64,000 nucleotides of DNA from Siphonodentalium dalli (taxonomy: Eukaryota; Mollusca; Scaphopoda; Gadilida; Siphonodentaliidae): the NCBI GenBank assembly GCA_032622095.1, contig CP136066.1, forward strand, positions 202,452,978 through 202,516,977, written 5' to 3'. A program made the position numbers and the translations under genes. The notes below the pieces were generated by a model. That model was not told the origin of the DNA, searched no databases, and saw only the letters and a list, made by a program, of their open reading frames with translations. Positions 1 through 51,100 of the stretch are shown here, one piece after another; the first letter of the stretch is position 1, and the number at the start of each line of letters is the position of its first letter.

Positions 1-584
1 ATTCAACGTTATTCGCATCTGCAGAGTTATACGGGAACGCAAACGTTATCGCTCGAAATTTATTCCCTGCGAGCACGGATGGCGCGCTCTGTTTTTACAG
101 TATATACCGAAATCATCCCAGATAATCACGAATATAGCATCAGATTTCTCCCCAGATATACCGTTATAAAGCTACTGGAATCTGCCAATCTACGGGAAAT
201 TCCAGGGAATGCCGATTGAGCTCAAACTTGCTACCTACGGGAAGTGTCATATATATGAGTGTGTCCTTTATAGACTCTAACCGATTGAGCTCAAACTTGC
301 TAAATAAGAAAATAGCCCCCAAGCCATAAATATCAACAACAACGATATTGCTACCTACGGGGAGCAACGTTATTAGCATCTGCAGAATTATGCAGAGAGA
401 AAGTGCTTTCCTATTTTTAGAACGCAACACATGTTTACGTCGCGTTGGTGATTGAGGTTCACAACGGGGTTAATTGACTGTCCGCTCTTTGCGACGATGA
501 GGTTCACGGCGGGGACTATTGACCAACACTCACAATTTCGTCTTTTGAATCAGATACCAACACCTCGACCGATCGGGACGAAAC

Positions 585-840
585 TTGGTACGTGAGTGTA
601 GTTTGACCAGGTGGTCGTCGCTGTCGTATTGGCGAGCCCGTGCGACGCCCGTACAGCGCATGCGCAGACGAGATATCGGAAACGGGTGGAGCTATCGACT
701 TGAAATTTGGTATGTGAATGTATCTTGCCCCGGATACGAATTGGATCGGGTCGCCGAGCCCGTGCGACGCCAGATTCGCGCATGCGCAGACCAGATCTCG
801 GAAACGGGTGGAGCTATCGACTTGAAATTTGGTTTTTGAG
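585..840 (+). repeat. 122-bp internal sub-repeat, about two copies
   Basis: Copies of a module containing GCGCATGCGCAGAC, GGAAACGGGTGGAGCTATCG, ACTTGAAATTTGGTATGTG and ATCGGGTCGCCGAGC. The same module recurs in 3900-4400 and in the 3' half of every unit of the two intronic Helitron arrays. Confidence 0.8.
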
Positions 841-937
841 TAGCCCGGTCCTGTACGGGGTTACATTGAAAAACTAAAATTAATGGATCGACCAAAGCCA
901 TGGGACGAATGCCGCCAGTGGCGGGCTAACCTGCTAG

Positions 938-1957
938 TCTACTATATAATTTGAGACTTCCGTATATATTTATGTGTGTGTGCATATATATATGTATGTG
1001 GGTACTTCATGGAATCCAAAACGCGTGTTCAGATTGAGCTCAAATTTCGTATATAAGTGTAAAATCCCACCGACACGGCCGTGGTCGCGTTTTGGAGAAG
1101 CTCAGAGCACCGTTTCTCCAATCCCAAATCACCGCAATCGGCACTTCGGGTTTAATAGCGTTGATATATAAAGAGCGTTCGTTTTCCGCAGTGTCTATAT
1201 AAAGAGCGTCGTTTTCGCTATCTACTTATCTGTATGACGGGAGTCTGTAGCCTGTCGCTCGAAATTTCACGACGGGAAGCGTTTGTTTTCAATTCAATGC
1301 AATGTTATCGCTCGAAATATTATGCAGAGAGATTTCACGACATTAGGACGGATACGGCAGACTCGAAATTTCACGACGGGAAGCGTTTGTTTTCAATTCA
1401 ATGCAATGTTATCGCTCGAAATATTATGCAGAGAGATTTCACGACATTAGGACGGGTACGGCAGACTCGAAATATTATGCAGAGAGATTTCCCGACGGGA
1501 AGCGTTTGTTTTCAATTCAATTCAATGTTATCGTAGAGAGATTTCACGAAACAAAGAATGCGTTGTCTGTCGTTCCTAGGAAGGGGGGATTTCTACGGGT
1601 AAATTTTTCCGCCAGAAACAAAAAAATTAATTAAAACAATTTAAAATTTAATTTCAATTCAATGCAATGTTATCGTAGAGAGATGTCGCTCGAAATTTCA
1701 CGACGGGAAGCGTTTGTTTTCAATTCAATGCAATGTTATCGCTCGAAATATTATGCAGAGAGATTTCACGACATTAGGACGGGTACGGCAGACTCGAAAT
1801 ATTATGCAGACCAGATCTCGGAAACGGGTGGAGCTATCGACTTGAAATTTGGTTTTTGAGTAGCCCGGTCCTGTATGGGGTTACCTTGAAAAACTAAAAT
1901 TAATGGATCGACCAAAGCCATGGGACCAATGCCGCCAGTGGCGGGCTAACCTGCTAG
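938..1957 (+). mobile_element. Helitron-like unit (array 1)
   Basis: Starts TCTACTATATAATTTGAGAC and ends with the CCGCCAGTGGCGG hairpin, then TAACCTGCTAG. It carries a nested tandem repeat of about 109 bp at 1255-1810. Confidence 0.75.
1255..1810 (+). repeat. Tandem repeat of about 109 bp inside a Helitron unit
   Basis: Repeated blocks with CTCGAAATTTCACGACGGG, TTTTCAATTCAATGCAATG and ATTATGCAGAGAGATTTC at about 1260, 1364, 1466 and 1685. The last copies are interrupted by an AT-rich stretch at 1600-1660. Confidence 0.8.
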
Positions 1958-3229
1958 TCTCCTATATATTTTGAGAACTACGTATATATATAAATATATA
2001 AATATATGTGTCCTCTATAGAATCGAAAACGGCTGGATCGATTTGGCTCGAACTTCCCATCTAAGGGTAAAAACCCACGGGAATGGTCGCCGCGGCGTTT
2101 TGGATAAGCTCAGAGCACCCGTTCTCAACTCCCAGTCACAAAAAAACGGTACCGCGGGGTTAATAGCGTTGATAGTTAAAGAGCGTTCGTATCCGCAGTG
2201 TCGTTGATAAAGATCTTCCATATTTGGGTTCGTTAACCGGTTAACGCTCTGTATTCCCTTCGGCTTTCGCATAGGGTTTAGTTTACGTTATCTGGAACTC
2301 GCTTCTGTGTCATTCTTACGTACTTAGGGCTTCCTAGGAACGAGGATATTTTAATTCGCATTCCCAACACCTAGCAGGGACAAATATCTCTTAGTCAGCA
2401 TCAAGGCTGCGAGTCTTGTGACGTATTAATTCAAATGCTTTCGATCAAATAATATTCTCTGTCGCACTCATATTTCGTCATCTCTACGAATCCACTGCAA
2501 TCGACCTATTTTTAGAACGCAACACATGGTACCAAAATTACGTCGCTTTGGTGATGGGGGTGCACGGCGCAGACCTACAGACGAATGCGACCAGCAATTT
2601 CAAAATTGGTCACTTGACCTCCCCATGAATATCTTCTGAGAAATTCCAGGGAATTCGTGCCCATTATCGTGCCATTGTGTGTGTCGCGGTCGCGCAATTT
2701 TAACACTTTCGAGGTAAATACACCTGTTGTGAATTACGTCACGCCGCGTGGATCCAGGCGGAAGTTAACCTGACCCTTCCTATGCCGCGTACGTTAGTGA
2801 TACCGGAGTTATAGTGTGCGCGTTATGTTTTTTGACTGACCGCAGTGCCCGATCCGCCGAATGTGAGCATGTTATCAACTGTTACGGCAGTCCGTGGCCC
2901 ACGGCAGTCAATTGCCGTGGCGAATATTGAAGCCTACGGCGATTGCCACGGCAATGCCGATTGCCGTGGTGAATGTGTGTCCTTTATAGACTCGAACCGA
3001 TTGAGATCAAACTTGCTACCTACGGGAAGTGTCATGAATGGGTTAAATTGTGACCCCGACCTGACATTGACCTTGAAAATTATCAATTCAAGGTCAAATC
3101 TGGTAAAACTGGCGGATTTCGACGAAATGTTACACCTAGGTGCAGCATACGTGTCTCGGAAGCTGTTGCAATTGCTTTTTTGAACAAAGCCATGAGACGA
3201 ACCACGCCAGTGGCGGGCTAACATGCTAG
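1958..3229 (+). mobile_element. Helitron-like unit (array 1)
   Basis: Starts TCTCCTATATATTTTGAGAA and ends with hairpin CGCCAGTGGCG, then GGCTAACATGCTAG. It contains paired AAGGTCA/TGACCTT motifs near 3055-3100 and AATTGCCGTGGC-type repeats at 2890-2970. Confidence 0.75.
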
Positions 3230-3253
3230 TCTACTATATATTTTGAGAACTAC

Positions 3254-3305
<52 letters not shown>

Positions 3306-3797
3306 GTACTACATAAAATCGAAAACGGCTGCGCGGATCGAGCTCAAATTTCGTATATAAGTGTAAAAACCCAGCTCTGACCACTCATTCTCCACTCCCA
3401 AGAGCGTATGTCGGTAATGTGATTATTACGTCTGGGTCTGGGCATGTGCGTCATTATACAGACATGAGCGTGTTGTGTGATTCTTACGTACTTGGGGCTT
3501 CCTAGGAACGCGGGTCTATTTTCCGCCCTATGTGATCTTCACCTTGAAACGGGTACCCACAAATGATATATATGTGTGTCCGATTGAGCTCAAACTTGCT
3601 ACCTACGGGATGTGTCATGGACGGGTTAAATTGTGACACCGACCTGACCTTGACCTTGAAAATGATCATTCAAGGTCAAATCGGGTCAACAAAATTATAA
3701 ACAAAAAATTTAATTAAAAAATTAATACAATTAACTCATTGAAAAAAAAAATGTCATGTTTCTGATGAACGCCGCCAGTGGCGGGCTAACATGCTAG
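3230..3797 (+). mobile_element. Helitron-like unit (array 1)
   Basis: Starts TCTACTATATATTTTGAGAA, followed by a long (TA)n tract, and ends CCGCCAGTGGCGGGCTAAC plus ATGCTAG. It is 568 bp long. Confidence 0.75.
3254..3302 (+). repeat. (TA)n microsatellite
   Basis: About 24 uninterrupted TA dinucleotides just inside the 5' end of a Helitron-like unit. Most units here carry a microsatellite at this position. Confidence 0.95.
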
Positions 3798-3819
3798 TCT
3801 CATATATATTTTGAAGACC

Positions 3820-3861
<42 letters not shown>

Positions 3862-4434
3862 CTTAATACAAATCTACGATTCTCGACCGATCGGGACGAA
3901 ACTTGGTACGTGTGTGTAGTTTGACCAGGCGGTGGTCGTTGTCGTATTGGCGAGCCCGTGCGACGCCCGTGCAGCGCATGCGCAGACGAGATATCGGAAA
4001 CGGGTGGAGCTATCGACTTGAAATTTGGTATGTGAATGTATCTTGCCCCGAGTACGAATTTTATCGGGTCGCCGAGCCCGTGCGACGCCAGCTTCGCGCA
4101 TGCGCAGACGAGATCTCGGAAACGGGTAGAGCTATCGACTTGAAATTTGCTGTGTGAATGTATCTTGCCCCGGATACAAATTTTATCGGGTCGCCGAGCC
4201 CGTGCGACGCCAGCTTCGCGCATGCGCAGACGAGATCTCGGAAACGGGTGGAGCTATCGACTTGAAATTTGCTATGTGAATGTATCTTGCCCCGGATACG
4301 AATTTTATCTGGTCGCCGAGCCCGTGCGACGCCAGCTTCGCGCATGCGCAGACCAGATATCGGAAACGGGTGGAGCTATCGACTTGGAAATTTGGTTTTT
4401 GAATAGCCCGGACAACGTCGGGCTCATCGGCTAG
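3798..4434 (+). mobile_element. Helitron-like unit (array 1) with four 122-bp sub-repeats
   Basis: Starts TCTCATATATATTTTGAAGA, followed by (CTGT)n at 3824-3861, and ends CCCGGACAACGTCGGGCTCA plus TCGGCTAG. GCGCATGCGCAG recurs at about 3974, 4095, 4217 and 4339, giving a period near 122 bp. Confidence 0.78.
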
Positions 4435-5205
4435 TCTACTATATATTTTGAGAACTACGTATATGTGTATATATGTGTGTGTATATATATATATGTGTAT
4501 GTGGGTACTTCATAGAATCGAAAACGGCTGTGCGGATCGAGCTCAAATTTCGAATATAGGTGTAAAAGCCCACGGGGATCGTCCACGTCGCATTTTGGAC
4601 AAGCTCAGAGCACCGCTTCTCCACTCCCAGTCAAAAAAATGGCACCGTGGGGGCTAACACACCAACGCTCCTTATATCTTCCATATTGGAAGATGTAACC
4701 GGTTAATGCTCTTTATAATCATCGACTTATTGATCTAAGAGGCGTAACTCTACATTTTTTATGAGTTTTCGCAATGTGATTCTTACGTCTGGGTCTCGGC
4801 GTGTGCGTCATTATAGACATGAGCGTGTTGTGTGATTCTTACGCACTCAGGGCTTCCTAGGAACGCGGATCGGGTCAGTTTTTCCGCCCTAGGTGATTTT
4901 CACATTGAAAAGGGTACCCACAAATTTTATATATGCGTCTTGTGTGATTCTTACGTACCTAGGGCTTCCTAGGAACGGGTAAAATCGTGACCCCGACCTG
5001 ACCTTGACCTTCAAAATGATCAATTCGAGGTCAAATCGGGTAAAACCGGATGGATTTCGACGGGTACTTTTGTCCGGGCAGTGTTTTTGACGGGTCAAAT
5101 CGTGACCCCACCTGACCTTCAAAATAGACAATTCAAGGTCAAATCGCGCAATTCGCCGAAAAGCAGAGGGGAAACAGCCCGGACGAAGTCGGGTCCACCT
5201 GCTAG
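4435..5205 (+). mobile_element. Helitron-like unit (array 1)
   Basis: Starts TCTACTATATATTTTGAGAA and ends GCCCGGACGAAGTCGGGTCC plus ACCTGCTAG. Inverted AAGGTCA/TGACCTT motif groups lie at about 4992-5035 and 5103-5145. Confidence 0.75.
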
Positions 5206-5522
5206 TCTCATATATATTTTTGGGACTTCTGTCTGTCTGTATGTTTGTTTATTAGCAATGGCCGGGAAAACTGCTGGACGGATTTCGACGAAATTTGATA
5301 CCTAGGGGTAATTTTGTCCGGGGAGTGTTTTGGACGGGTCAAATCGTGACCCAACCTGACATTGACCTTCAAAATGGTCAATTCAAGGTCAAATCGCGCC
5401 TTTCGACGGATTTCGATGTTAGATCCACAAAGGTTTTCAAACAGCTTTTTGAAAATTGGTATCTGAAGTCCGGATGAAAGCAGAGGGGACACAGCCCGGA
5501 CGAAGTCGGGTTACCCTGCTAG
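5206..5522 (+). mobile_element. Short terminal Helitron-like unit (array 1)
   Basis: A 317-bp unit. It starts TCTCATATATATTTTTGGGA with CTGTCTGTCTGT, has a CTGGACGGATTTCGACGAAA motif, and ends CCCGGACGAAGTCGGGTTAC plus CCTGCTAG. The host T at 5523 completes the expected A|T target. Confidence 0.78.
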
Positions 5523-20340: not shown

Positions 20341-20466
20341 ATTACTTCTCTAAATAACTAATGATTTATTGGATAACATATTAAATAGTAACAAGAATCA
20401 TTAAAAATATAAAAAATAGCATCACAAATACATATGTATGAATATAAATATGAACATATATATATC

Positions 20467-21345: not shown

Positions 21346-21435
21346 CTTCCTGGTAACGCTCATGCTATTATATTTACATACACCTGATATCTCTTCCGAT
21401 TTCCCCATAGCGTTACGGTAGACACGCCCTCTTAT

Positions 21436-22106: not shown

Positions 22107-22380
22107 AACCACCGAGCATCCAAGTTCCCAAATGTGTTTTATACTGTGCATCCTCTGTGTCTTAAAGAAAAACAATACCCCAAAATCTACTCACACCAAC
22201 TTTCATACTCTATAATTATGTCTATCAACTGTCAATGAAAAGAAAAGGCAAAATCGTGCACTTTCACAACAAAGCATCCAGTCGAGCCAAATCGCGCGCG
22301 CACACAAACAAAACATCCAGTCGTGAAAATGAGACCATGTACGTCCGGCATGAAAGCAGTCACAGTATACTAATACACCC

Positions 22381-24786: not shown

Positions 24787-24859
24787 CAACAATTCGTAAC
24801 AATTGTCTGTCGTTCATTGTGCGATGGGTGTCTAATCAAAGCATTCATTTTCGGCACGT

Positions 24860-25194
24860 TCAAGTTTTCTCAACACAGTTGCAGAATGGGAAGGTTCCAC
24901 AGCACGGCTGTAGGCGTGGGTTCCATGCTAGTTTCGGCATTGTGTACTGGTTTGGAACCTCTTTAATAGTGCGGCGATGCTGAACCGTTTCCTCTTCCAT
25001 GAAAGCCACCACCTTCTGTAGCTCCCTGTTGTTTGAGTGGTCTTTGGGGTGTAATTCACTGGGATCCTCAGTGATATCAAACAGAAGTGGTGGGTCCTGT
25101 CTCCTGGCTAGGTAACAAGTACACTGGAACAAACACTGCTGCATGTTCTGCCAGTAATACGGGGTTTTATAAACAAGTTTCCATACCGTTGTTC
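24860..25194 (-). CDS. STS-like: Sulfatase exon 5 (last) with C-terminal tail
   Basis: 335 bp, residues 462-572 and TGA. It reads [20 protein letters not shown], then [19 protein letters not shown] (the LFD(I/L)xxDPxE block of sulfatases), [20 protein letters not shown] and the Cys-rich end [14 protein letters not shown]. The acceptor is GTTCCTGTGG read in inverse (CCACAG|GA). No AATAAA is visible in the 75 bp before the satellite, so the poly(A) site must lie inside or beyond it, or an additional 3' exon exists. Confidence 0.93.
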
Positions 25195-31100: not shown

Positions 31101-34100
31101 AAGAGAATGCATTGGCACTGGTTTTTAACAAAAATTCAGGAAGCTCCAATCATGGGAGGGTTAACCAACGTGGCGAGGAAGATCTAAACAAACAATTGAT
31201 TTAATTAAACATACCCATATATATTCCATTCCAGCCGCCATCACGCTCTCCATTGGCACCCATTTCCTCCAAATGACCTCCATTGTCAGACGAGAAATAC
31301 GAAAATGTGCTGTTTCCGAATCCACGATCGTCGAGTGCGTGTTGCACTTTCCCAACAGCCCAATCTAACTCCATGACGCCGTCACCATAGCGACCATGCT
31401 GCGATTTTCCTTTAAACATGTCACTAATACCCAAGTAAGTGTGGACCTGGTGCCAGGCAATGAAAAGTAAGAATGGCACCTTGTCTGCTGCCCTGTCATC
31501 TAAGAACTCGACAGCTTCGTTCACAAATCGTTGTGTGAGAGTTTCCAGAACTATAGGTTGCTCTACGACTTCATTGTTTCTTATGAGTAGATCGTTCAGC
31601 AAAACAATGTTTGATAGCACCACCACGATTGTTGTAATCGGGACAGCGAGAAAAACTATCCCAGCTATCATCACGTAAGCATTGATCGCACCATGCTTCC
31701 ATGACATGCACAGAGAGAAGCATATTATAACAACAACGCTCATTAATCGATACTGCCACAACGGAAATGCGGCGTCCACCAAGGTGTCTCCCTCAAACCC
31801 AAAGTCTTTTAAATTTGTCCATGGAATTCCGTAGTAATGATCGAACCCCTGATTCAATGGACTGTGTATATTATCTCCGAATGTATGTTTGTGCCATCCA
31901 AGATGCCATTTTCCTGAAAATCAAGATAATGCAAATTATGCAATACACATGCACATATGCAAATATAGAGGACTAGCAGGGTTACCCGGCGTTGCACAGG
32001 TTAATGCGATGTGAAACCCTCTGTGTGTTGTGGATATTTGTTGGGAATAGAAAATGCTCTTGCTTAAAGTGTTATACGTTTTCTCATAAATTGTATATTC
32101 AAATAGCATCACAAAACATGATTATTACAGTCATGGAATATAATTAGTGGCTCACCTTGTCAATTGTCATTCTGTTTATCGCGATTAATCCGTTCCACCA
32201 ATAATGAAGTATTTATGTATTTACAACTGCGTATACATTAGATGATACATGGACATCATGAACACATTAGTTCGATAAAAGATGATAATTGGGTTTTACA
32301 TATTCAAGTTGAGATGTATCAATCACTCTAGTGGGTTGGACTAAGATCTCGAGGACACCTGGCTATCATAACTCCATGAAGATACAGATGTTTCAAAGAA
32401 ATTTCCAGGTGCTACTCTGTTCATGGTGCTATATATTGGCTAAATATTCTCAGTTTAAACGAAATGTTGCTGCGCCTATATATCAACTATATGTGCCAGG
32501 CACAGAGCGAGATTTTGAGTTGTTTATGTCAGTCGATGAGTCTGTTCTAAAACCCTTGTCAGATGTCAGTATTGGGAGGATTCTGAAAAGTCTTGTGCTA
32601 CTAACTGCATTTTCTTGTATATCAGAAGAAACTATATTTGACTGCACACTGTGACCACTATTTATGAACAGGCCTTCCATATCTCTTGACAAATTGTAAC
32701 TTTTTTGTGGAAACTGTATTGAATGGAACAGACTCAATTTTGTTATAATATATATGCAATCCTCTGACGGTTCGATGTCTCTCAGTTTACACGAATATAT
32801 GTATATCTCTTCAATAGAATGATAAATATACATTTAATGCTTCTTCTACGTATCTCTTTTTGCTAGCTCATTGTGTGAATGCCCTGATTGCCATATAAAT
32901 ATGACAGGTAAGAAGATATAATCAAGTGACTTAAGTGGGTCACCATATGTCGGGATTGTGAAATGTGAACGCCCAAAACTACTTAAAATGGTATGGAGAT
33001 GGCCTGGGTGACTGTATATAACTTATACGTGGATATCGGCGAATAGCAATCTCATCAATGATAGTGCATATCCGCTCGCCATCCGTGACGCAAACGACAC
33101 CAAATGTGATTTAATTCATGGTATATTATTAAAGAAAAACGTGTATGAATTTGGTTGGAATTGGGGCCAAATATATTTGTATCAGCTTTTGCCTCTTTTG
33201 ACATATTTAAACCACGCCCATTAGACTCATGGATGCATGATATACTGGCGATGATTATATATAATTTTGGTCGTAATCAGCAACTAAATAAATTCTGAGA
33301 ATAATTATGACCCAACATCTCTCACCCAAACGACAGCAATTTGGCATCTTTAAATCACACGATGATATTCCTCATATCATAGAGAAGAATAATATATCAA
33401 TTTGGTGGAAATCTGGGCTAAAATAGTTTATTAAATCAATTGTTGATGCAACGCTGACTCGAACAACGCCATATTGCGAAGGTGATTATGTATTCGTTTG
33501 GTGGAAATCGGCGACAAAACTATTTCACCATATTTTTTTTATTTTGCCGACCTCCCTCTTTTCTTCCACTGACACCAACAGCGTCATTTTAGAAAAAATT
33601 TAACCCGCACCATTATCTTCCTTGTAAAAAGTTTCCTCTCTTAGAACGCCTTGGTGCCATGTCGATTGTACCGCGTGAAGTTATATATAGAACGCACACA
33701 GACACACAGAAAGACAGACAGACAGACAGACAGCACGATTTGATTTCTTGTATCATTTGAGAAGAATGTGTCTGAATTTGATGGTAATTGGTACTAAAAA
33801 TATTTTGTATCAGTTTTTGGTGACCCTCCCGTCCCTATTTCGGACTCAAGCTGCACACACTAAGACTCATTAGAGATTAGAGATGAATATATATGAAATT
33901 GGTGAAAATTGGTGAGTATACAAATTCGTATCAAATTTAAGGTCCCCATATTTCTCACCCATAGGGCACCTATTTGGTGTATCTAAACCACACGATAAGA
34001 TTCCTCGTATCACGGAGAAGAATATGTATCAATCTGGTGGAAATCGGCACTAAACATATACATATATTTTTTTGTGTCCCTCTCATCTCTATACACCACT

Positions 34101-35072
34101 GACTCTCGAATGGCTCCACTTGTGACATCCTTAAACCACACGATTACACTCCTGATATCATGGAGATGATTGTTTATAAGTTTGGTGATAATCGGCGACT
34201 AAACAATTTTTTTTATCAAATTTGGTGCCAATCCCTCCCCTCCCCATCTCTCACCCAAACAGCACCACTATAGCGTCTTTAAATCACACGATTAGATTCC
34301 TCGTATCACGGATAAGAACGTGTATCAATTTGGTGGAAATTGGCGCTAAAAAAATTGTGCATCAATTTTGGTGCCCCTGTCCCTTTCAATGCAACCCTGA
34401 CTCGAATGAGGCCACATTTGACAGATATAAGCCACACCATTAGACTCCTCATACCATGGGGATGACTTTGTATAAGAGTGGTGGCAATCGGCGACTAAAC
34501 CAATTATTATCAAATTTAGTGCCCACCCCTCCCAATCTCTCACCCAAAAGACAACAATTTGGCGTTGTTAAATCGCACAATTAGATTCCTTGTATCATGA
34601 AGAAGAATATATATCAATTTGGTGGAAATCGGCGTTAAAATTAGTTTTATCAATTTTGGTGCCCCTCTCCCCTTCCGTGCATCCCTGACTCGAACGACGC
34701 CACTTTTGACATATTTAAACCACACCGTTGGATTCTTCATATCATGTGGATGATTATATGTAAGTTTCATGGCAATCGGCGACAGAAAAAAATCTGCCCC
34801 TCCCCCTTCCGGGCACCCCTGACGCGAACGGCGCGACTTTTGCCATATTTAAACCACACCAGTAGATTCCTCATATTATGGGGATGATTATATATAAGTT
34901 TGGTGGCAATCAGCGACAATTTTTTTTCTGCCCCTCCCCCTTTTCTGCCCCTGACAACAACGGCGCCACTTTAGAAAATTCTAACCCCGACCATTATCTT
35001 TCTCGTAAAAAGCTACTCCTAGTAGACCCCTTTGGCATCATCTAGATGGTCCCCTGTGAATTTCTATAGAAC

Positions 35073-35107
<35 letters not shown>

Positions 35108-35337
35108 TTCGCAAATATAGATATAGATAACCAATTGTGAGACAGAATTATACCTTTGCGTCGTAACTAGCTACGCAATTAAGACCCTGGGTAAATTCGA
35201 GGATCAAGTAGCAATGAAAATGAATTGAAAAGAATTATTCAAACCATTTCGCCAACATGGGGATACATATGCCAATCTGTTTTGTTTCAATCTTACACAT
35301 TATCTATTATATATTTTGAAAGATCTGTGTATGTGTT

Positions 35338-35368
<31 letters not shown>

Positions 35369-36095
35369 TTGAAATCGATGGACTCGAAAACGACTAAGCC
35401 AATTTCGATGAAATTTGGTATTTGGATGTGTTTTCGGCCGGAGACGAACATAGGCATATTTATTTGTCCGTGCGAGGTCAACTTTTCACGTGCGGAGGTC
35501 AAATCTGTTTTTACGCCGTTTTTGCGCTAATATATTTCAGTTCGGTGCTCACAAATCGATTCGATATAGCGCGAATAATAAATTGCCAGTCATATAATTT
35601 GCACGGTTAGAATCTGTGGCGTGTCCTCTTTCCAACGATATATAATATGTATGTATCCGTTTTAGTTATCTGCCTCAATTATTAGGTACAAGTGGTCCGA
35701 TGCTTTTATCGGGATAAAATCAATGCGTAATTTCTATGACGTCGTCAGAGGTCATAAAGTTAGATTACGTTAACTCTCACCCTGCCGATGCATTTGACTG
35801 TGTCGCGTTAACTCATCACCGGCCGAGGTATCCGCAAATGACATTGGGCTATATATCTCGCAAACGGGTGTAGCTATCGACTTGAAATTTGGTATGTGAA
35901 TGTATCTTGCCCCGGATACGAATTTTATCGGGTCGCCGAGCACGTGCGACACCAGCTTCGCGCATGCGCAGACCAGATCTAGGAAACGGGTGGAGCTATC
36001 GACTTGAAATTTGGTTTTTGAATAGCCCGGACGAAGTCGGGTCACCTTCTAGTCTATTATATATTTTGAAAGATCTGTGTGTGTATGTGTTTGTT

Positions 36096-36139
<44 letters not shown>

Positions 36140-39100
36140 AAATCGATGGACTCGAAAACGACTAAGCCAATTTCGATGAAATTTGGTATTTGGATGTGTT
36201 TTCGGCCGGAGACGAACATAGGCATATTTATTTGTCCGTGCGAGGTCAACTTTTCACGTGCGGAGGTCAAATCTATTTTTACGCCGTTTTTGCGCTAATA
36301 TATTTCAGTTCGGTGCTCACAAATCGATTCGATATAGCGCGAATAATAAATTGCCAGTCATATAATTTGCACGGTTAGAATCTGTGTGGCTTCCTCTTTC
36401 CAACGATATATAATATGTATGTATCCGTTTTAGTTATCTGCCTCAATTATTAGGTACAAGTGGTACGATGCTTTTATCAGGATAAAATCAATGCGTAATT
36501 TCTATGACGTCGTCAGAGGTCATAAAGTTAGATTACGTTAACTCTCACCCTGCCGATGCATTTGACTGTGTCGCGTTAACTCATCACCGGCCGAGGTATC
36601 CGCAAATGACATTGGGCTATATATCTCGGAAACGGGTGTAGCTATCGACTTGAAATTTGGTATGTGAATGTATCTTGCCCCGGATACGAATTTTATCGGG
36701 TCGCCGAGCACGTGCGACGCCAGCTTCGCGCATGCGCAGACGAGATCTCGGAAACGGCTTGAGATATTGACTTTAAATTTGGTATGTGAATGTATCTTGC
36801 CCCGGATACGAATTTTATCGGGTCGCCGAGCACGTGCGACACCAGCTTCGCGCATGCGCAGACCAGATCTAGGAAACGGGTGGAGCAATCGACTTGAAAT
36901 TTGGTTTTTTAATAGCCCGGACGAAGTCGGGTCACCTTCTAGTCTATTATATATTTTGAAAGATCTGTGTGTTTGTTTGTGTGTGTGTGTGTGTGTTTGA
37001 AATCGATGGACTCAAAAACGACTAAGCCAATTTCGATGAAATTTGGTATTTGGATGTGTTTTCGGCCGGAGACGAACATAGGCATATTTATTTGTCCGTG
37101 CGAGGTCAACTTTTCACGTGCGGAGGTCAAATCTGTTTTTACGCCGTTTTTGCGCTAATATATTTCAGTTCGGTGCTCACAAATCGATTCGATATAGCGC
37201 GAATAATAAATTGCCAGTCATATAATTTGCACGGTTAGAATCTGTGGCGTGTCCTCTTTCCAACGATATATAATATGTATGTATCCGTTTTAGTTATCTG
37301 CCTCAATTATTAGGGAGAAGTGGTGCGATCTTTTATCAGGATAAAATCAATGCGTAACTTCTATGACGTCGTCAGAGGTCATACAGTTAGATCGCGTTAA
37401 CTCTCACCCTGCCGATGCATTTGACTGTGTCGCGTTAACTCATCACCGGCCGAGGTATCCGCAAATGACATTGGGCTATATATCTCGGAAACGGGTGTAG
37501 CTATCGACTTGAAATTTGGTATGTGAATGTATCTTGCCCCGGATACGAATTTTATCGGGTCGCCGAGCACGTGCGACACCAGCTTCGCGCATACGCAGAC
37601 CAGATCTAGGAAACGGGTGGAGCAATCGACTTGAAATTTGGTTTTTGAATAGCCCGGACGAAGTCGGGTCACCTTCTAGTCTATTATATATTTTGAAAGA
37701 TCTGTGTGTTTGTTTGTGTGTGTGTGTGTGTGTGTTTGAAATCGATGGACTCAAAAACGACTAAGCCAATTTCGATGAAATTTGCTATTTGGATGTGTTT
37801 TCGGCCGGAGACGAACATAGGCATATTTATTTGTCCGTGCGAGGTCAACTTTTCACGTGCGGAGGTCAAATCTGTTTTTACGCCGTTTTTGCGCTAATAT
37901 ATTTCAGTTCGGTGCTCACAAATCGATTCGATATAGCGCGAATAATAAATTGCCAGTCATATAATTTGCACGGTTAGAATCTGTGGCGTGTCCTCTTTCC
38001 AACGATATATAATATGTATGTATCCGTTTTAGTTATCTGCCTCAATTATTAGGTACAAGTGGTCCGATGCTTTTATCGGGATAAAATCAATGCGTAATTT
38101 CTATGACGTCGTCAGAGGTCATAAAGTTAGATTACGTTAACTCTCACCCTGCCGATGCATTTGACTGTGTCGCGTTAACTCATCACCGGCCGAGGTATCC
38201 GCAAATGACATTGGGCTATATATCTCGGAAACGGGTGTAGCTATCGACTTGAAATTTGGTATGTGAATGTATCTTGCCCCGGATACGAATTTTATCGGGT
38301 CGCCGAGCACGTGCGACACCAGCTTCGCGCATGCGCAGACCAGATCTTGGAAACGGGTGGAGCTATCGACTTGAAATTTGGTTTTTGAATAGCCCGGACG
38401 AAGTCGGGTCACCTTCTAGTCTATTATATATTTTGAAAGATCTGTGTGTAAGTTTGTAAGTGTGTTTGAAATCGATGGACTCCAAAACGACTAAGCCAAT
38501 TTCGATGAAATTTGGTATTTGGATGTGTTTTCGGCCGGAGACGAACATAGGCATATTTATTTGTCCGTGCGAGGTCAACTTTTCACGTGCGGAGGTCAAA
38601 TCTATTTTTACGCCGTTTTTGCGCTAATATATTTCAGTTCGGTGCTCACAAATCGATTCGATATAGCGACTGTGTCGCGTTAACTCATCACCGGCCGAGG
38701 TGTCCGCAAATGACATTGGGCTATATATCTCGGAAACGGGTGTAGCTATCGACTTGAAATTTGGTATGTGAATGTATCTTGCCCCGGATACGAATTTTAT
38801 CGGGTCGCCGAGCACGTGCGACGCCAGCTTCGCGCATGCGCAGACGAGATCTCGGAAACGGGTTGAGATATTGACTTTAAATTTGGTATGTGAATGTATC
38901 TTGCCCCGGATACGAATTTTATCGGGTCGCCGAGCACGTGCGACACCAGCTTCGCGCATGCGCAGACCAGATCTAGGAAACGGGTGGAGCAATCGACTTG
39001 AAATTTGGTTTTTGAATAGCCCGGACGAAGTCGGGTCACCTTCTAGTCTATTATATATTTTGAAAGATCTGTGTGTTTGTTTGTGTGTGTGTGTGTGTGT

Positions 39101-42100
39101 TTGAAATCGATGGACTCAAAAACGACTAAGCCAATTTCGATGAAATTTGGTATTTGGATGTGTTTTCGGCCGGAGACGAACATAGGCATATTTATTTGTC
39201 CGTGCGAGGTCAACTTTTCACGTGCGGAGGTCAAATCTGTTTTTACGCCGTTTTTGCGCTAATATATTTCAGTTCGGTGCTCACAAATCGATTCGATATA
39301 GCGCGAATAATAAATTGCCAGTCATATAATTTGCACGGTTAGAATCTGTGGCGTGTCCTCTTTCCAACGATATATAATATGTATGTATCCGTTTTAGTTA
39401 TCTGCCTCAATTATTAGGGAGAAGTGGTGCGATCTTTTATCAGGATAAAATCAATGCGTAACTTCTATGACGTCGTCAGAGGTCATACAGTTAGATCGCG
39501 TTAACTCTCACCCTGCCGATGCATTTGACTGTGTCGCGTTAACTCATCACCGGCCGAGGTATCCGCAAATGACATTGGGCTATATATCTCGGAAACGGGT
39601 GTAGCTATCGACTTGAAATTTGGTATGTGAATGTATCTTGCCCCGGATACGAATTTTATCGGGTCGCCGAGCACGTGCGACACCAGCTTCGCGCATACGC
39701 AGACCAGATCTAGGAAACGGGTGGAGCAATCGACTTGAAATTTGGTTTTTGAATAGCCCGGACGAAGTCGGGTCACCTTCTAGTCTATTATATATTTTGA
39801 AAGATCTGTGTGTTTGTTTGTGTGTGTGTGTGTGTGTTTGAAATCGATGGACTCAAAAACGACTAAGCCAATTTCGATGAAATTTGGTATTTGGATGTGT
39901 TTTCGGCCGGAGACGAACATAGGCATATTTATTTGTCCGTGCGAGGTCAACTTTTCACGTGCGGAGGTCAAATCTGTTTTTACGCCGTTTTTGCGCTAAT
40001 ATATTTCAGTTCGGTGCTCACAAATCGATTCGATATAGCGCGAATAATAAATTGCCAGTCATATAATTTGCACGGTTAGAATCTGTGGCGTGTCCTCTTT
40101 CCAACGATATATAATATGTATGTATCCGTTTTAGTTATCTGCCTCAATTATTAGGTACAAGTGGTCCGATGCTTTTATCGGGATAAAATCAATGCGTAAT
40201 TTCTATGACGTCGTCAGAGGTCATAAAGTTAGATTACGTTAACTCTCACCCTGCCGATGCATTTGACTGTGTCGCGTTAACTCATCACCGGCCGAGGTAT
40301 CCGCAAATGACATTGGGCTATATATCTCGGAAACGGGTGTAGCTATCGACTTGAAATTTGGTATGTGAATGTATCTTGCCCCGGATACGAATTTTATCGG
40401 GTCGCCGAGCACGTGCGACACCAGCTTCGCGCATGCGCAGACCAGATCTAGGAAACGGGTGGAGCTATCGACTTGAAATTTGGTTTTTGAATAGCCCGGA
40501 CGAAGTCGGGTCACCTTCTAGTCTATTATATATTTTGAAAGATCTGTGTGTAAGTTTGTAAGTGTGTTTGAAATCGATGGACTCCAAAACGACTAAGCCA
40601 ATTTCGATGAAATTTGGTATTTGGATGTGTTTTCGGCCGGAGACGAACATAGGCATATTTATTTGTCCGTGCGAGGTCAACTTTTCACGTGCGGAGGTCA
40701 AATCTATTTTTACGCCGTTTTTGCGCTAATATATTTCAGTTCGGTGCTCACAAATCGATTCGATATAGCGACTGTGTCGCGTTAACTCATCACCGGCCGA
40801 GGTATCCGCAAATGACATTGGGCTATATATCTCGGAAACGGGTGTAGCTATCGACTTGAAATTTGGTATGTGAATGTATCTTGCCCCGGATACGAATTTT
40901 ATCGGGTCGCCGAGCACGTGCGACGCCAGCTTCGCGCATGCGCAGACGAGATCTCGGAAACGGGTTGAGATATTGACTTTAAATTTGGTATGTGAATGTA
41001 TCTTGCCCCGGATACGAATTTTATCGGGTCGCCGAGCACGTGCGACACCAGCTTCGCGCATGCGCAGACCAGATCTAGGAAACGGGTGGAGCAATCGACT
41101 TGAAATTTGGTTTTTGAATAGCCCGGACGAAGTCGGGTCACCTTCTAGTCTATTATATATTTTGAAAGATCTGTGTGTAAGTTTGTAAGTGTGTTTGAAA
41201 TCGATGGACTCGAAAACGACTAAGCCAATTTCAATGAAATTTGGTATTTGGATGTGTTTTCGGCCGGAGACGAACATAGGCATATTTATTTGTCCGTGCG
41301 AGGTCAACTTTTCACGTGCGGAGGTCAAATCTGTTTTTACGCCGTTTTGCGCTAATATATTTCAGTTCGGTGCTCACAAATCGATACGATATAGCGCGAA
41401 TAATAAATTGCCAGTCATATAATTTGCACGGTTAGAATCTGTGTGGCTTCATCTTTCCAACGATATATAATATGTATGTATCCGTTTTAGTTATCTGCCT
41501 CAATTATTAGGTACAAGTGGTACGATGCTTTTATCAGGATAAAATCAATGCGTAAATTCTATGACGTCGTCAGAGGTCATAAAGTTAGATTACGTTAACT
41601 CTCACCCTGCCGATGCATTTGACTGTGTCGCGTTAACTCATCACGGCCGAGGTATCCGCAAATGACATTGGGCTATATATCTCGGAAACGGGTTGAGATA
41701 TTGACTTTAAATTTGGTATGTGAATGTATCTTGCCCCGGATACGAATTTTATCGGGTCGCCGAGCACGTGCGACACCAGCTTCGCGCATGCGCAGACCAG
41801 ATCTAGGAAACGGGTGGAGCAATCGACTTGAAATTTGGTTTTTTAATAGCCCGGACGAAGTCGGGTCACCTTCTAGTCTATTATATATTTTGAAAGATCT
41901 GTGTGTAAGTTTGTAAGTGTGTTTGAAATCGATGGACTCGAAAACAACTAAGCCAATTTCAATGAAATTTGGTATTTGGATGTGTTTTCGGCCGGAGACG
42001 AACATAGGCATATTTATTTGTCCGTGCGAGGTCAACTTTTCACGTGCGGAGGTCAAATCTATTTTTACGCCGTTTTGCGCCAATATATTTCAGTTCGGTG

Positions 42101-45100
42101 CTCACAAATCGATTCGATATAGCGCGAATAATAAATTGCCAGTCATATAATTTGCACGGTTAGAATCTGTGTGGCTTCATCTTTCCAACGATATATAATA
42201 TGTATGTATCCGTTTTAGTTATCTGCCTCAATTATTAGGGACAAGTGGACGTACGATCTTTTATCAGGATAAAATCAATGCCTAACTTCTATGACGTCGT
42301 CAGAGGTCATAAAATTAGATTACGTTAACTCTCACCCTGCCGATGCATTTGACTGTGTCGCGTTAACTCATCACCGGCCGAGGTATCCGCAAATGACATT
42401 GGGCTATATATCTCGGAAACGGGTGTAGCTATCGACTTGAAATTTGGTATGTGAATGTATCCTGCCCCGGATACGAATTTTATCGGGTCGCCGAGCACGT
42501 GCGACACCAGCTTCGCGCATGCGCAGACCAGATCTAGGAAACGGGTGGAGCAATCGACTTGAAATTTGGTTTTTGAATAGCCCGGACGAAGTCGGGTCAC
42601 CTTCTAGTATATATATATCTATGGAAGCGTATTGGTGCTATTTAAAAAAAAAATTGGCCCAGTAAGTGCTAATTAGCACATACGTATCAGCTAATTAGCT
42701 GATAATAACAGCTAATTAGCACATAGTAAGTGCTAATTAGCACATACATGTACATATCAGCTAATTAGCTGATAATAACAGCTAATTAGCTGATACTATT
42801 AGCTAATTTGCGCATACGTATCAACTAATTAGCACATGCATATCAGCTAATTAGCACATACGTATCAGCTAATTAGCTGATAACGACAGCTAATTAGCTG
42901 ATAACAACAGCTAATTAGCTGATAACAACAGCTAATTAGCACATAGTAAGTGCTAATTAGCACATACTCATCAGTTTCATGATGACGTCTTTTGAAAAGA
43001 AATCCACGAGGTTCAAGTTGACCCGGAAGTAGTTCCAGTTTTGAGTCACGTGTCGAAATTTCTGATGAAACAGACATGACGATTGGATAACTTGTCAGGC
43101 CTATATAACAGTATTAAATTATCAGCTAATTAGCTGATAGTATCAGCTAATTAGCTGATAGTATCAGATAATTAGCAGATATGTATGTGCTAATCAGCAC
43201 TTACTATGTGCTAATTAGCTGTTATTATCAGCTAATTAGCTGATACGTATGTGCTAATTAGCTGATATTATCAGCTAATTAGCTGATGTGTATGTGCTAA
43301 TTATCACTTACTATGTGCTAATTAGCTGTTATTATCAGCTAATTAGCTGATACGTATGTGCTAATTAGCACTTACTGGGCCATTTTTTTTTCTTTCAAAA
43401 TGGCACCAATACGCTTCCATATATATCATATTCCCCAGCTAGCACATTGATGTTATTACTGAACAGGTCATTGTCGGCACATTTAAGTGTGTTGTGGTAA
43501 CCATGCAGCTTTACGAAAAGTCATATTTAGGTTCCCAGATTGACCTTTGCTATGTTTTCAGCACACATTTGATACCAAAATATTCCGTCCGATCACATGG
43601 CGCGTGGATAGTCATCTTAAAAACTGTCATTCCTAGCTGCCTCACATTTAAATTGTTTCTTTTTTTTATCAGCGACGTAACGTTAAGAAAGATGACAATT
43701 ATAAAGCATAAACCTACAACAGTCAAGCTGGGTATCCAACATGTGGAAAAAATGGCCTATTATATAGTTTGTAATAGATAAAGAGAAACAGTATTTAATT
43801 TCTGGCAGACCAGAACACTGAATTTTCGAACACTTAATTTCGAACACTTAATTCGAACACTTAATTGTCGAACGCTGACTATTCGAACACTTAATTTTCT
43901 TTCGAATCGCCAGATCACAATATATAAAATATATTCCATATTATATACCATTTGAAAGAGGAAGCTCCAAAACATTTTATTATCAACTTATCCGGTCGAA
44001 TATACTGTGGAAATGTTGTTTTTGTCGAGGTACCGATGTGTCTTCTGTGCTTAATTTTGAATCGGACTGTACTGCAAACTCTATTCTCAATGGAAGAGGA
44101 ATAACTATATCTCTCAGTTTTAATTATGATGCCTTCTGGGTAAATAACGGGGGAAGTCTTGGGATGAATCTGAGAATCTCTATCACTTGGTGGACACTCT
44201 TAAGATACAGCTGTTCTGTACCCTGGTGGTATATATATATATATATATATATGTGACCCGCCATATCAAATCCAGTCGTAAGTCGGGATTTTGTTTCCCC
44301 TGTGCCAATGCATTCTCTTATATATGCGAGTCGACCATAGGTCGCCTCGCATATATAAGAGAATGCATTGGCCTAACAATTTTTTATCATTTTTTTTAAA
44401 TAAATGTTTCTTACAATATTTAGGACATAAAAAAAAAAAAAACATATGTTACCCTGCAGGGAGCCCCACACATATATAGAAGCATATAGAAGAGTGTCGT
44501 CTGCTCATGTTTGTCTGGGGCTCTGTATGGGTGAAATTATAAAATTGTTAAAGAATACAAGAAAAAATTATAAAAATTGTTGTAAAAAATTGTTAGGCCA
44601 ATGCATTCTCTTATATATGCGAGGCGACCGGATGATGACATTTATTCCGGACATATCCAATCCTTCAGTTAGCCACCGTCTCCAGGGACATTGTGGTCGG
44701 TCGACCTCAAGTTTTATTTAATATGATTTGCGACGGCCATATCAGTGTATCATTTCTAGATGAAGACAATCCAACTCTACCACCCATCTGACACTTGAAT
44801 TATTCTAAACCACACAACTATCGGCATTGCCGCGCCGTATATATCAGTACCAGATTCCTAGATTATATCCACGGTCCCCACACTACTTTCCCCACCCATC
44901 GGAAACATGAATTATCAAAATAATGCTCTTCATTGTTCGGTCCACAAAATTTTAGGAGACAACAATACGATTAGGTGCCATTAACTTAGCAGGTATAATT
45001 CCATGCGCATTAAGATTCGTCGACTAAGATTGTTACAAGAAACACCAGGGAGGTACAGCTTCACATATGTAGCCTCTGATGTCTACATATATAGAGTACA

Positions 45101-48100
45101 TACAGTTTGCATTGGTTTGTGGCACCGTGGTACGGTATATATCATCTCATTCAAAACCAGCAAAATAATCTTTTAATTCTTATTTTTTTTTAAAACACAG
45201 ATTCACCAATATTAGCATTGCACTGTATCAACCCAATATATTGTGCTGTAATGCCGTTGAAGGTTGTTTGTGAGTTTGTGAGTAGCTTCATATCTGCCCT
45301 TACACAAGTTCAACGAATTCCGTTACTAGTTCCCAGACCAACCCCAGTTTCTAGTTCCCAGTTATCATAATATGATAACAATCGTTACTGAATCGCCCAC
45401 ATGTATGTATGCATAATCACAGCAGCTACGGTGCCATCCTTTCGGGATTCTTCTTGTGCCGCGACTAGTCCATCTAGAAATCACAAACCAGGTCACATAT
45501 GCTCGCCCAGTTGTTCAAAATTGGGCGTAAGTCGTGCATGGGGTCAACATAATGAAAAAGGTCAGTTTTCGTTGCTAAATCGCCTGCGTAGGCATAACCA
45601 TAGCAGCCACGAGGCTATTGTTCTGGATTCGTTTTGTGCCGCTACTAGTTCATCTCAAAATTAAAAAAACTAGGTCACAATTAACCTGTCCAGCTGTTCA
45701 AAAATTGGGTGTAAGTCGTGCGTGGAGGAAATTAACAATTTCTCGTTGCCAAATTCCAATATGTATGCATAATCACAGCAGCAACGGGGCTATCCTTGTG
45801 TATTCTTGTACTGCCACCATTCCATCTAGAAATCACAAACTGGGTCACATACGCCCATCCAGCTGTTCAAAAAATCGCCTTTGTTCTGACAACACTATTG
45901 TTTGTAAAAAAGCAGACAAATAATGTGCACTGGTGATTATGGAAGCGACCGACTATGCCAACAAATCGGAAGATACACTCTTGGACGATCGTTTTTACAA
46001 GACACTTCCTACAAATGAAGAGAAGTTTGTCACAAAGTTCTCTAAATGCCTAACTGATAAAGAAGCCGAATATCTCACAAAATTTGAGATGAAATGCAGC
46101 TCTTACGGATTACCCAAAATTCACAAAAGTCCCACAATCCAACAGGCAATTAAACAACAGAATTCCGCGTATATCCGAGTGCCCAGGTGTGGATAATATG
46201 GTCACTGATGTTAGTCGGGAACATTTCTTTTGCGTGTATATATACAGTTGGTGTTCGACATAAATCATCCAGAATATCGCAAAATTTCACTGAGTGAACA
46301 TTTGGATGAATGTGGAATGAATCAATATTCGATCTTCCCATTCCAAAACTGTTCTCAGCAAACAGAATACGCCGAACCCGGAAGGAAGATTTCTACGTTT
46401 ATCACTTCCGATGCAAGCTAAATGCGCCCAGGAAATGACGTTGTGTAAAGCTGGGTTGTCTCCCTTGACACTATGATGTCTCATGTTATTCTTGGACCAT
46501 ATATATAACTATATATATATATACATTTGCCAATGTCTGTTCCATAACAATTTACAGGGACCATCTCGATAACAATAGAGAGGTCTATTATTTGTACTTT
46601 TTTTTACAAGAAAGATAATGGATAAGATAGTGCGGGTTAGAATTTTCTAAAGTGACGCTGTTGTTGTCAGGGGCACAAAAGGGGAGAAGGGCAGAAAATT
46701 GTCGCCGATTTCCACCAAGGAATCTAACGGTGTGGTTTACAGACGTCAATAGTGGCGCCATTTGAGTCAGGGTTGCATGGAAGGGGAGAGGTGCACAATA
46801 ATTAATAAACCTGTTTAGCGCCGATTTCCCCAAAGTTGATACACATTCTTCTCTATGAAACGAGGGATATAATCGTGTGCTTTCAAGATGGCAACAGTGG
46901 CGCTATTTGAGTCAGGGGTGCAGTGCAGGGAGAGGGGCACCAAAATCACACTTCCGCAAAAAGCCAATTTGGCATTTTTGGCGGCTATGTTTTTCGGTGG
47001 TTACCATGGCAACCATGGGCTTTCCCTAGCTTGGCATGATATCCAAATCCACAAGATATCACCTCAGGATGTTGTATACCAAGTTTGTTGCTTTTACCTT
47101 AAAATGCACGATTCACCCTTTTTTTGACACGGAGCCGCCCTACTATAAGAGAATGCATTGGCACAGGGTAAAAAAATATATTTGGTTATATTTCATGCCA
47201 ACAATAGTCAATAACATTGACTCTGTATATAAATAATCGGGGACTCAAAAAGTAAATGGGGATTGAAGTTAGTTGAGAAATAAATCATACCTATGTATGC
47301 TGTTTTATATCCGACTGACTTGGCCAGTTCTGCAAACGTTGTCTCGTTGCTGGGTAGTCCTGCTTCTGAAGCCAGGAACAATATTGCCCGGACGTTGTTT
47401 TTAGCCAACGGAGCCATACCTGCGTGTGGTTAAAGAAAGACGGTGTTCGAAGTAATTAAAGGATATTACTTGGTTGGTTTGATATTAGGTCCGATATCAG
47501 CCCAAGATAACCTTCGGTCTCAGGCTGATATGAGGTTACATAGGGCTGATATGAGGTTACCGAGGGCTGATATGAGGTTACCGAGGGCTGATGTGAGGTT
47601 ACCGAGGGCTGATATCAGGCCTATAATATCAAACTAGCCAAATAATATCTTATTTATTAATTAGAATGCCTCTTAGTAATTGACAACTCTTTCATATGAG
47701 TGACGTCACCAAATCTATATCTACACATTATTTAGCAATGAAGTAGAGTTACGGCATGTCATAAAACCATATTACTCGTATTTGTGATGCCGTGAAATGA
47801 TATTACTAGTTTTAAGGTCATCTATTATATATTTTGAAAGATCTGTGTGTGTGTGTGTGTGTGTGTTTGTGTGTGTGTTTGAAATCGATGGACTCAAAAA
47901 CGGCTAAGCCAATATCGATGAAATTTGGTATTTGGATGTGTTTTCGGCCGGAGACGAACATAGGCATATTTATTTGTCCGTGGGAGGTCAACTTTTCACG
48001 TGCGGAGGTCAAATCTATTTTTACGCCGTTTTTGCGCTAATATATTTCAGTTCGGTGCTCACAAATCGATTCGATATAGCGCGAATAATAAATTGCCAGT

Positions 48101-51100
48101 CATATAATTTGCACGGTTAGAATCTGTGTGGCTTCATCTTTCCAACGATATATAATATGTATGTATCCGTTTTAGTTATCTGCCTCAATTATTAGGTACA
48201 AGTGGTACAATGCTTTTATCGGGATAAAATCAATGCGTAATTTCTATGACGTCGTCAGAGGTCATAAAGTTAGATTACGTTAACTCTCACCCTGCCGATG
48301 CATTTGACTGTGTCGCGTTAACTCATCACCGGCCGAGGTATCCGCAAATGACATTGGGCTATATATCTCGGAAACGGGTGTAGCTATCGACTTGAAATTT
48401 GGTATGTGAATGTATCTTGCCCCGGATACGAATTTTATCGGGTCGCCGAGCACGCGCGACACCAGCTTCGCGCATGCGCAGACCAGATCTAGGAAACGGG
48501 TGGAGCAATCGACTTGAAATTTGGTTTTTGAATAGCCCGGACGAAGTCGGGTCACCTTCTAGTCTATTATATATTTTGAAAGATCTGTGTGTTTGTTTGT
48601 GTGTGTGTGTGTGTGTTTGAAATCGATGGACTCAAAAACGACTAAGCCAATTTCGATGAAATTTGGTATTTGGATGTGTTTTCGGCCGGAGACGAACATA
48701 GGCATATTTATTTGTCCGTGCGAGGTCAACTTTTCACGTGCGGAGGTCAAATCTATTTTTACGCCGTTTTTGCGCTAATATATTTCAGTTCGGTGCTCAC
48801 AAATCGATTCGATATAGCGCGAATAATAAATTGCCAGTCATATAATTTGCACGGTTAGAATCTGTGTGGCTTCATCTTTCCAACGATATATAATATGTAT
48901 GTATCCGTTTTAGTTATCTGCCTCAATTATTAGGTACAAGTGGTCCGATGCTTTTATCGGGATAAAATCAATGCGTAATTTCTATGACGTCGTCAGAGGT
49001 CATAAAGTTAGATTACGTTAACTCTCACCCTGCCGATGCATTTGACTGTGTCGCGTTAACTCATCACCGGCCGAGGTATCCGCAAATGACATTGGGCTAT
49101 ATATCTCGGAAACGGGTGTAGCTATCGACTTGAAATTTGGTATGTGAATGTATCTTGCCCCGGATACGAATTTTATCGGGTCGCCGAGCACGTGCGACAC
49201 CAGCTTCGCGCATGCGCAGACCAGATCTAGGAAACGGGTGGAGCAATCGACTTGAAATTTGGTTTTTTAATAGCCCGGACGAAGTCGGGTCACCTTCTAG
49301 TCTATTATATATTTTGAAAGATCTGTGTGTTTGTTTGTGTGTGTGTGTGTGTGTTTGAAATCGATGGACTCAAAAACGACTAAGCCAATTTCGATGAAAT
49401 TTGGTATTTGGATGTGTTTTCGGCCGGAGACGAACATAGGCATATTTATTTGTCCGTGCGAGGTCAACTTTTCACGTGCGGAGGTCAAATCTGTTTTTAC
49501 GCCGTTTTTGCGCTAATATATTTCAGTTCGGTGCTCACAAATCGATTCGATATAGCGCGAATAATAAATTGCCAGTCATATAATTTGCACGGTTAGAATC
49601 TGTGGCGTGTCCTCTTTCCAACGATATATAATATGTATGTATCCGTTTTAGTTATCTGCCTCAATTATTAGGTACAAGTGGTCCGATGCTTTTATCGGGA
49701 TAAAATCAATGCGTAATTTCTATGACGTCGTCAGAGGTCATAAAGTTAGATTACGTTAACTCTCACCCTGCCGATGCATTTGACTGTGTCGCGTTAACTC
49801 ATCACCGGCCGAGGTATCCGCAAATGACATTGGGCTATATATCTCGGAAACGGGTGTAGCTATCGACTTGAAATTTGGTATGTGAATGTATCTTGCCCCG
49901 GATACGAATTTTATCGGGTCGCCGAGCACGTGCGACACCAGCTTCGCGCATGCGCAGACCAGATCTAGGAAACGGGTGGAGCTATCGACTTGAAATTTGG
50001 TTTTTGAATAGCCCGGACGAAGTCGGGTCACCTTCTAGTATTGATATATTCACATAGTTCGATAACAGGCCGTTCTGGACAAAATATGTCATATCTAATT
50101 AATACATACAACATCTATCAGGTTGACACTGAACTCAGCTTGACACTCAATATATATCATTGGAAGTTCTGTCAATATCCTATCTAAAGTATGGTTAGAA
50201 GATATATTTCCAATTAATTTCCCATTTACATGCAAGGAAGTTATTTCCAGCAAAAATGATTTATACTGCTCATATATGAGTTTATCCCTATTCGTATCAG
50301 AAAATTTCAATGTATGGTCCATTATTTTGTTAGTAATTTCCTATAACGCGACATGGTCTATCGGACATTTATTAACTATAGCTCATGAGGATAGCATTCA
50401 AAATAGCGGTGACAGCACTGTATACCCTTACAGTCAGAAGCATGACAAAACCAGGCGGGTGTCACTGCTGGCAAAATCCCAACTTTCGTTTTTCCCTATT
50501 TTATATACCATTCTTAAATATATGGTAAGCTTTGGTGGTGGGTGTTGCTGTTAAAATAGTTACACCCGTTAAACCGACATGAACCGCCATAAACAGACAG
50601 AATAGTATATTATAGACAAATGTTGTTCTTATACCCATAAACAGACAGAATAGTATATAATAGACAAATGTTGTTCGTATACACATCATATAACACCGGG
50701 GAGACCCCACTAAGTTAACTTTGTATATAAATTCCACCAAGATTTTTACAACACACCGGTATTGCGCTAGTTAACCCTTTACCCAACAAACCGGCCAAAT
50801 AAAGCTTCAACAGCCTAAAATATCTTCGGTCTGTCTCAATAGAACCATACAAATATAGATATCATTGGAACCGGCTCCTTGGCCACATTGTGATAGTTAC
50901 AGTTATGCCCTGTGCCAATGCATTCTCTTATATATGCGAGTCGACCAGAGGTCGCCTCGCATATATAAGAGAATGCATTGGCCTAAAAAATTTTTTTTAC
51001 CATTTTTTCTTACATTCTTTAACAATTTTATAATTTTTAATGTGTTAAGCCAATGCATTCTCTTATATGCGAGGCGACCTATGGTCGACTCGCATATATA

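Follow-up and report, generated by a model that had tools for sequence, protein, structure and literature searches.

Helitrons joined head to tail have been described in several systems, and the arrays considered here lie in a window (the whole 64,000-nt stretch of DNA analysed, C6:202452978-202516977, contig CP136066.1) of the 2.2-Gb genome of the scaphopod Siphonodentalium dalli, in which we find three head-to-tail arrays of TC...CTAG elements. Whether such tandems arise as multimers or by serial insertion was being debated in print by 2008, when Du et al. (2008; PMC2267711) discussed Pritham and Feschotte. In the parts of that paper covered, a head-to-tail Helitron pair at maize r1 is described, one alternative for which is insertion at an A|T made of the host A and the T of the resident 5′ end. 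As in the arrays described here, the maize join is a spacer-free CTAG|TC junction of unlike Helitrons, but it is one pair whose order was left open, whereas here there are many joins, counts of edge and orientation and, in a family designated W, a mark of order. For a triple Helitron in Metarhizium acridum, the alternatives given in the covered parts of the report (Chellapan et al., 2016; PMC5148889) are insertion twice into the 5′ end or rolling-circle replication, the same two as are weighed here, the fungal triple being a single unresolved case. That a resident 5′ end offers a fresh A|T was thus proposed before, in 2008 for the maize pair (PMC2267711) and in 2016 for the fungal triple (PMC5148889).

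The bat elements Helraiser and Helibat1 are alike in their TC...CTAG ends, A|T target, A/T-rich preference that is strongest on the 3′ side, and head-to-tail circles (PMC4778049, PMC5876387, in the parts covered), and in those same parts the resident 5′ end is not described as a target. Helraiser differs in that 701 retranspositions are reported without clustering around donor sites (Grabundzija et al., 2016, PMC4778049, in part). Plant centromeric Helitron arrays (Xiong et al., 2016, as cited in the covered parts of PMC5876387 and PMC5148889) are likewise tandem, and the title of that work attributes them to rolling-circle amplification. The question is not settled by PMC13286980, PMC10048060, PMC3789558 or PMC2374699, as far as these were covered, and in the literature searched, which lay mostly outside the subscription journals, we found no genome-scale counts of edge and orientation and no order mark.

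We consider it probable that the arrays of S. dalli grew by serial joining of new copies onto resident 5′ termini in the same orientation, together with concatemers and with the movement or duplication of multi-unit blocks. This explanation is supported by joins at the exact edge, a strong orientation bias, neighbours that are often unlike and the 4-bp scar of the W family, where this is found. The arrays in the window and the termini of the U subfamily are as follows.

35303..42607, plus strand: array A1, ten U-type Helitron units (motif scan, sequence reading and pairwise comparison)
35303, 36053, 36943, 37680, 38420, 39047, 39784, 40522, 41149 and 41877, plus strand: starts of the A1 units
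36943..41148, plus strand: tandem three-unit duplication in A1, 36943-39046 copied as 39047-41148 (pairwise comparison)
47821..50038, plus strand: array A2, three U units (47821, 48563, 49301) between host A at 47820 and host T at 50039
1..5522, plus strand: array A3, heterogeneous Helitron units, with joins at 938, 1958, 3230, 3798, 4435 and 5206
35303..35318, plus strand: U-type 5′ terminus TCTATTATATATTTTG, an A/T stretch whose first G is at +16, found at every U unit start
42568..42607, plus strand: U-type 3′ terminus, a GC-rich palindrome followed by CACCTTCTAG, found at every U unit end and read from sequence
31973..35127, minus strand: single Helitron-like element, 5′ end at 35127, CTAG ending at 31973, between host A and T

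We take the units to be non-autonomous Helitrons. Those parsed in the window have the canonical ends, 5′ TC and 3′ CTRR (here CTAG); a short GC-rich palindrome, CCCGGACGAAGTCGGG, precedes the CTAG end (read by eye); and the flanks of A1, A2 and the sampled runs agree with insertion between A and T without target duplication. The preliminary description held that every array starts after a host A and ends before a host T without spacers, and its coordinates are right: A1 lies between host A at 35302 and host T at 42608, A2 is flanked as listed above, and A3, whose 5′ edge is left of the window, stops before host T at 5523. All 17 internal joins (nine in A1, two in A2, six in A3) are CTAG|TC with zero spacer bases. 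The statement about every array stands for those edges of A1, A2 and A3 that are seen; the minus-strand stretch at 31973-35127 is likewise bounded by A and T, but as the motif scan finds no internal join in it, it appears to be a single element rather than an array.

Beyond the window, 57 runs of U units were parsed in 39 sampled genome stretches. The base 3′ of the run is T in 57/57. Thirteen of the runs have CTAG upstream and hence are not true array starts; the 5′ neighbour of the remaining 44 is A in 41, T in two and G in one, the 41 including three pieces of array L050, where the neighbour ends in CTTCTA, and three runs preceded by TCTA. The A in 29/29 host 5′ flanks is no evidence, these having been hand-chosen from 58 with three that did not end in A omitted. 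Helentrons, of the DINE-1 type, insert between T and T, and this type was rejected because A is the 5′ neighbour in 41 of the 44 runs without CTAG upstream. A classical satellite array, with near-identical units and no transposon edges, was also rejected, given that the units often differ and that the edges are A and T; a few arrays, e.g. L046, come close to such satellites. In L050 (C1:161329000-161338999) and at C4:277422278, 277431077 and 277460513, a 3′ end reading CTTCTAT or CTTCTA replaces CTTCTAG directly before the next unit, and a terminator worn in this way could make two units move as one.

Genome-wide, 1,440 sites match the join pattern CTAG|T...TTTTGAAAGATCTGTG exactly, and since the control, the same pattern read backwards, has 0, chance is excluded for the U joins. 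About 1,426 of the 1,440 show the spacing of an edge join. Five of the other 14 are sequence variants; two more fall on an interior A|T, six are shifted by 2 nt and one by 5 nt. Edge joins, including one sequence variant, account for 98 of the 100 matches listed, and these 98, on C1, form 55 clusters, of which 35 hold one join. Within the U 5′ end, further A|T sites visible to the search lie 4, 7 and 9 bp inside, and a fourth, 11 bp inside, is invisible to it; genome-wide, the 7-bp site has two joins and the other two visible sites have none. Exact inverted (head-to-head) joins occur at two places genome-wide among ends fitting TCTNNTATATATTTT, neither of U type, a count to be read with the caveat that long perfect palindromes may be lost or mis-assembled; not all palindromic structures have been lost, because inverted pairs 12 bp apart are present in the assembly. 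Joins that fall at the exact edge and in one orientation are not predicted by generic A|T insertion in either orientation. As a separate observation, Helitron ends exactly 12 bp apart make up six of 12 close pairs, in direct, convergent and divergent arrangements (C1:93420888, C2:191357312, C3:286089464, C4:277456147, C4:277464181 and C6:142361509), with the spacer TATATATATATA in five of the six.

The W family offers the best evidence for serial insertion. Its 5′ start is TCTATACTATATATTTTGAG, and joins 4 bp inside that end, TCTA|TACT, number 2,110 genome-wide; no inverted +4 join was found among newcomers whose 5′ end begins TCTAT, those being the ones visible to the search. U enters W in 291 joins at +4 and in 234 at the W edge. 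A newcomer inserted at +4 would strand the first TCTA of W on its own far side. With coordinates on C1, C2, and C3 below 189 Mb, and with TCTA|U sought 0.45-1.1 kb upstream, the mark stands one U unit upstream of 37/98 listed U|W+4 joins versus 5/86 listed U|W edge joins, which served as the control (Fisher p 1.3e-7); on the wrong side, at 0.45-1.1 kb, it was found in 0 of either listed set. Since the stranded TCTA is on the far side of the newcomer, the order of the letters places the newcomer 5′ of the resident W wherever the scar is present. On C1 below 161 Mb, 18 of the 20 U units before a W+4 join have no listed CTAG|U join upstream. Where a W site has at least two TCTA, a TCTA-less W join lies 0.7-2.7 kb downstream in 25/44 and upstream in 4/44. 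In five +4 joins fetched individually, the stranded tetramer is exact in L061, L062 and L063, has one mismatch in L064 and is not adjacent in L065, the newcomer start in L063 and L064 being taken, as our interpretation, to be TCTTCTAT. The 2,110 TCTA-less W joins stand beside 982 sites with two or more TCTA, these being two of the terms of a wider balance of TCTA copies. Multiple TCTA are also seen at single W 5′ ends (two in L052, four in L053, and about four to five, partly degenerate, in L057), which might record earlier insertions or reflect microsatellite slippage.

That the arrays are rolling-circle concatemers, replication having passed the 3′ end several times before the multimer was inserted at one A|T, we regard as unlikely, although the route has precedents: active circles with a head-to-tail CTAG|TC junction have been described (Grabundzija et al., 2016, PMC4778049), and tandem arrays have been taken as support for rolling-circle transposition (Grabundzija et al., 2018, PMC5876387), both as stated in the parts covered. 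Two loci fit it well, five units with 0-1 differences standing between A and T at C1:138021206, and C1:93420888-93426826 consisting largely of two recurring unit types, of which the same pair stands alone at a separate site 12 bp away. In the first sample, whose loci were selected for similarity to A1 unit 1 and so do not form an unbiased survey, neighbouring units differ nearly as much as units from separate arrays (median 1.75% in 39 pairs versus 2.4% in 3,899 pairs), and 25 of the 39 neighbour pairs differ by 1-3%, which speaks against concatemers. Different Helitron families are joined gaplessly, which argues against their generality, and the TCTA scar of W requires insertion into a resident; concatemers thus stand as a minor route. 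Some arrays are nonetheless identical-unit, rolling-circle-like concatemers, and multi-unit blocks have been moved or duplicated as well: a three-unit block occurs at three places on C4 with different flanks, and duplicated blocks are seen in A1 and at C4:121582523. In A1, units 3 and 6 of the duplication are identical, 4 and 7 show two mismatches and one gap, and 5 and 8 one mismatch, and its borders are approximately 30 bp or less from unit borders. The third unit of A2 is identical to A1 unit 7 (39784-40521), while the units beside each differ. The arrays are therefore a mixture of insertion at resident 5′ ends and block amplification. The interpretation given in the preliminary description thus holds in part. 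Its proposal that new copies land at a resident 5′ end is supported by the scar order in W, the unlike neighbours and the gapless joins between families, but it does not extend to the concatemers and duplicated blocks.

The same description took the bare, fresh A|T at the resident 5′ junction to be the target, so that arrays would grow at the outer 5′ edge only and carry their youngest unit there. We find this improbable. Edges of A and T and the absence of spacers agree with it, and A1 follows the predicted gradient, its most divergent units being at the 3′ end. The visible A|T sites inside the U terminus are, however, almost unused and inverted joins nearly absent, which tells against A|T itself as the determinant of the site. 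The distance of a unit to its nearest unit outside the array served as a proxy for age, which is crude and was applied to a small sample; by this measure there is no overall age gradient, 39 neighbour steps taken 5′ to 3′ giving 17 older, 18 younger and 4 ties (permutation p 0.50 without A1, 0.08 with A1), and such a lack is what the preliminary description had itself named as telling against its model. A2 shows the reverse of the prediction, with six private changes in its 5′-most unit and none in its 3′-most. Considering this lack of a gradient, a model in which every resident 5′ junction, whether A|TC or G|TC, can receive a newcomer fits better than growth at the outer edge only.

Host sites are A/T-rich on the 3′ side, falling off at +15, and so resemble a Helitron 5′ end; this agrees with the 3′-side A/T preference reported for the bat Helitron. 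A position-by-position target matrix built from 19 host flanks was discarded, as it did not separate the used edge from the unused interior sites. A looser A/T-box rule (A/T at +7 to +11, first G or C at +12 to +18) fits 15/19 host targets versus 10.8% of 8,705 random A|T sites, the 19 being what remained of 27 hand-picked among 48 3′ flanks (those at or beside Helitron ends omitted) after removal of eight pure TA-repeat flanks. The box is present in six of eight additional flanks, taken from other families or from later loci, and its end is within range in five; these flanks come from 11 rows, three of which, one of them passing, were dropped as joins to Helitron 5′ ends. The rule is satisfied by U edges and by the W +4 site.

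Secondary unequal exchange, or integration of circles by homology, is very doubtful as the source of most tandem units: the duplicated blocks in A1 and at C4:121582523 and the higher frequency of near-identical pairs within than between arrays favour it, but it accounts neither for different families joined gaplessly nor for the W scar.

Several observations weigh against serial joining at resident 5′ ends as we propose it. No empty or partly filled allele was seen and no single insertion step was observed directly, and the overall age gradient is lacking, as set out above. Near-identical pairs (<0.5%) make up 12.8% of neighbours and 14.1% of other same-array pairs but 5.9% of pairs between arrays, so that neighbours are not wholly independent and growth was partly by copying within the array. 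Most of the arrays sampled had been picked for their similarity to A1 unit 1, and five for their length. The A/T-box rule is not necessary and fails as a full explanation, the W edge violating it and yet holding its 234 joins with U upstream; something besides this rule must thus favour the edge. In 61 of the 98 listed +4 joins no TCTA|U mark was found, which may be due to exact matching, altered termini, multiple newcomers or a different origin. Conversely, 45/87 listed TCTA|U sites have no W join after them, either at +4 or at the edge; some of these sites belong to the L050 array, where the neighbour just ends in CTTCTA. Genome-wide, TCTA|U occurs 203 times versus the 291 expected from the U|W+4 joins, so the balance is unmet, and a tally rule by which TCTA copies equal joins plus one was abandoned because the counts did not fit.

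For serial joining we suggest a mechanism in which the 5′ terminus of a resident copy would be the preferred landing site, the CTAG 3′ end of the newcomer being joined onto the resident 5′ TC in the same orientation, so that arrays would gain spacer-free units at resident 5′ edges. What a putative transposase recognizes may be the resident 5′ terminus rather than just any A|T, and internal G|TC junctions may be usable besides the outer A|TC edge, in which case growth would not be confined to the outer edge; some arrays would be further enlarged by rolling-circle concatemers and by the movement or duplication of multi-unit blocks. A tentative but serious possibility is the wider statement that the Helitron 5′ terminus is a preferred acceptor to which the transposase joins each new copy facing the same way, whether the junction is A|TC or G|TC, and that the arrays are in part readable records of insertion order, with one TCTA mark for each W +4 insertion.

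Other features of the window were noted. An element with inverted ends, CTATGGAAGCG... and ...CGCTTCCATA, encloses GCTAATTAGC-type repeats at 42619-43421, approximately 11 bp past the 3′ edge of A1, and looks like a miniature inverted-repeat transposable element. Pieces of a sulfatase gene (PF14707, PF16347, PF00884) lie near the arrays on the minus strand, at 24860-25255, 28826-29176 and 31201-31920, and a weak match to reverse transcriptase (PF00078), below its cut-off, lies at 61074-61595, also on the minus strand. Long minisatellites with periods of 28, 34, 50 and 37 bp occupy 8804-9616, 20463-21347, 22380-24789 and 26347-27842.

Finally, thousands of joins and a built-in order mark make the question of multimers versus serial insertion testable in this genome. 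If the resident 5′ end is the acceptor, arrays of unlike units would be explained, and such self-targeting would give Helitrons a means of collecting in arrays and so may limit scattered insertions.

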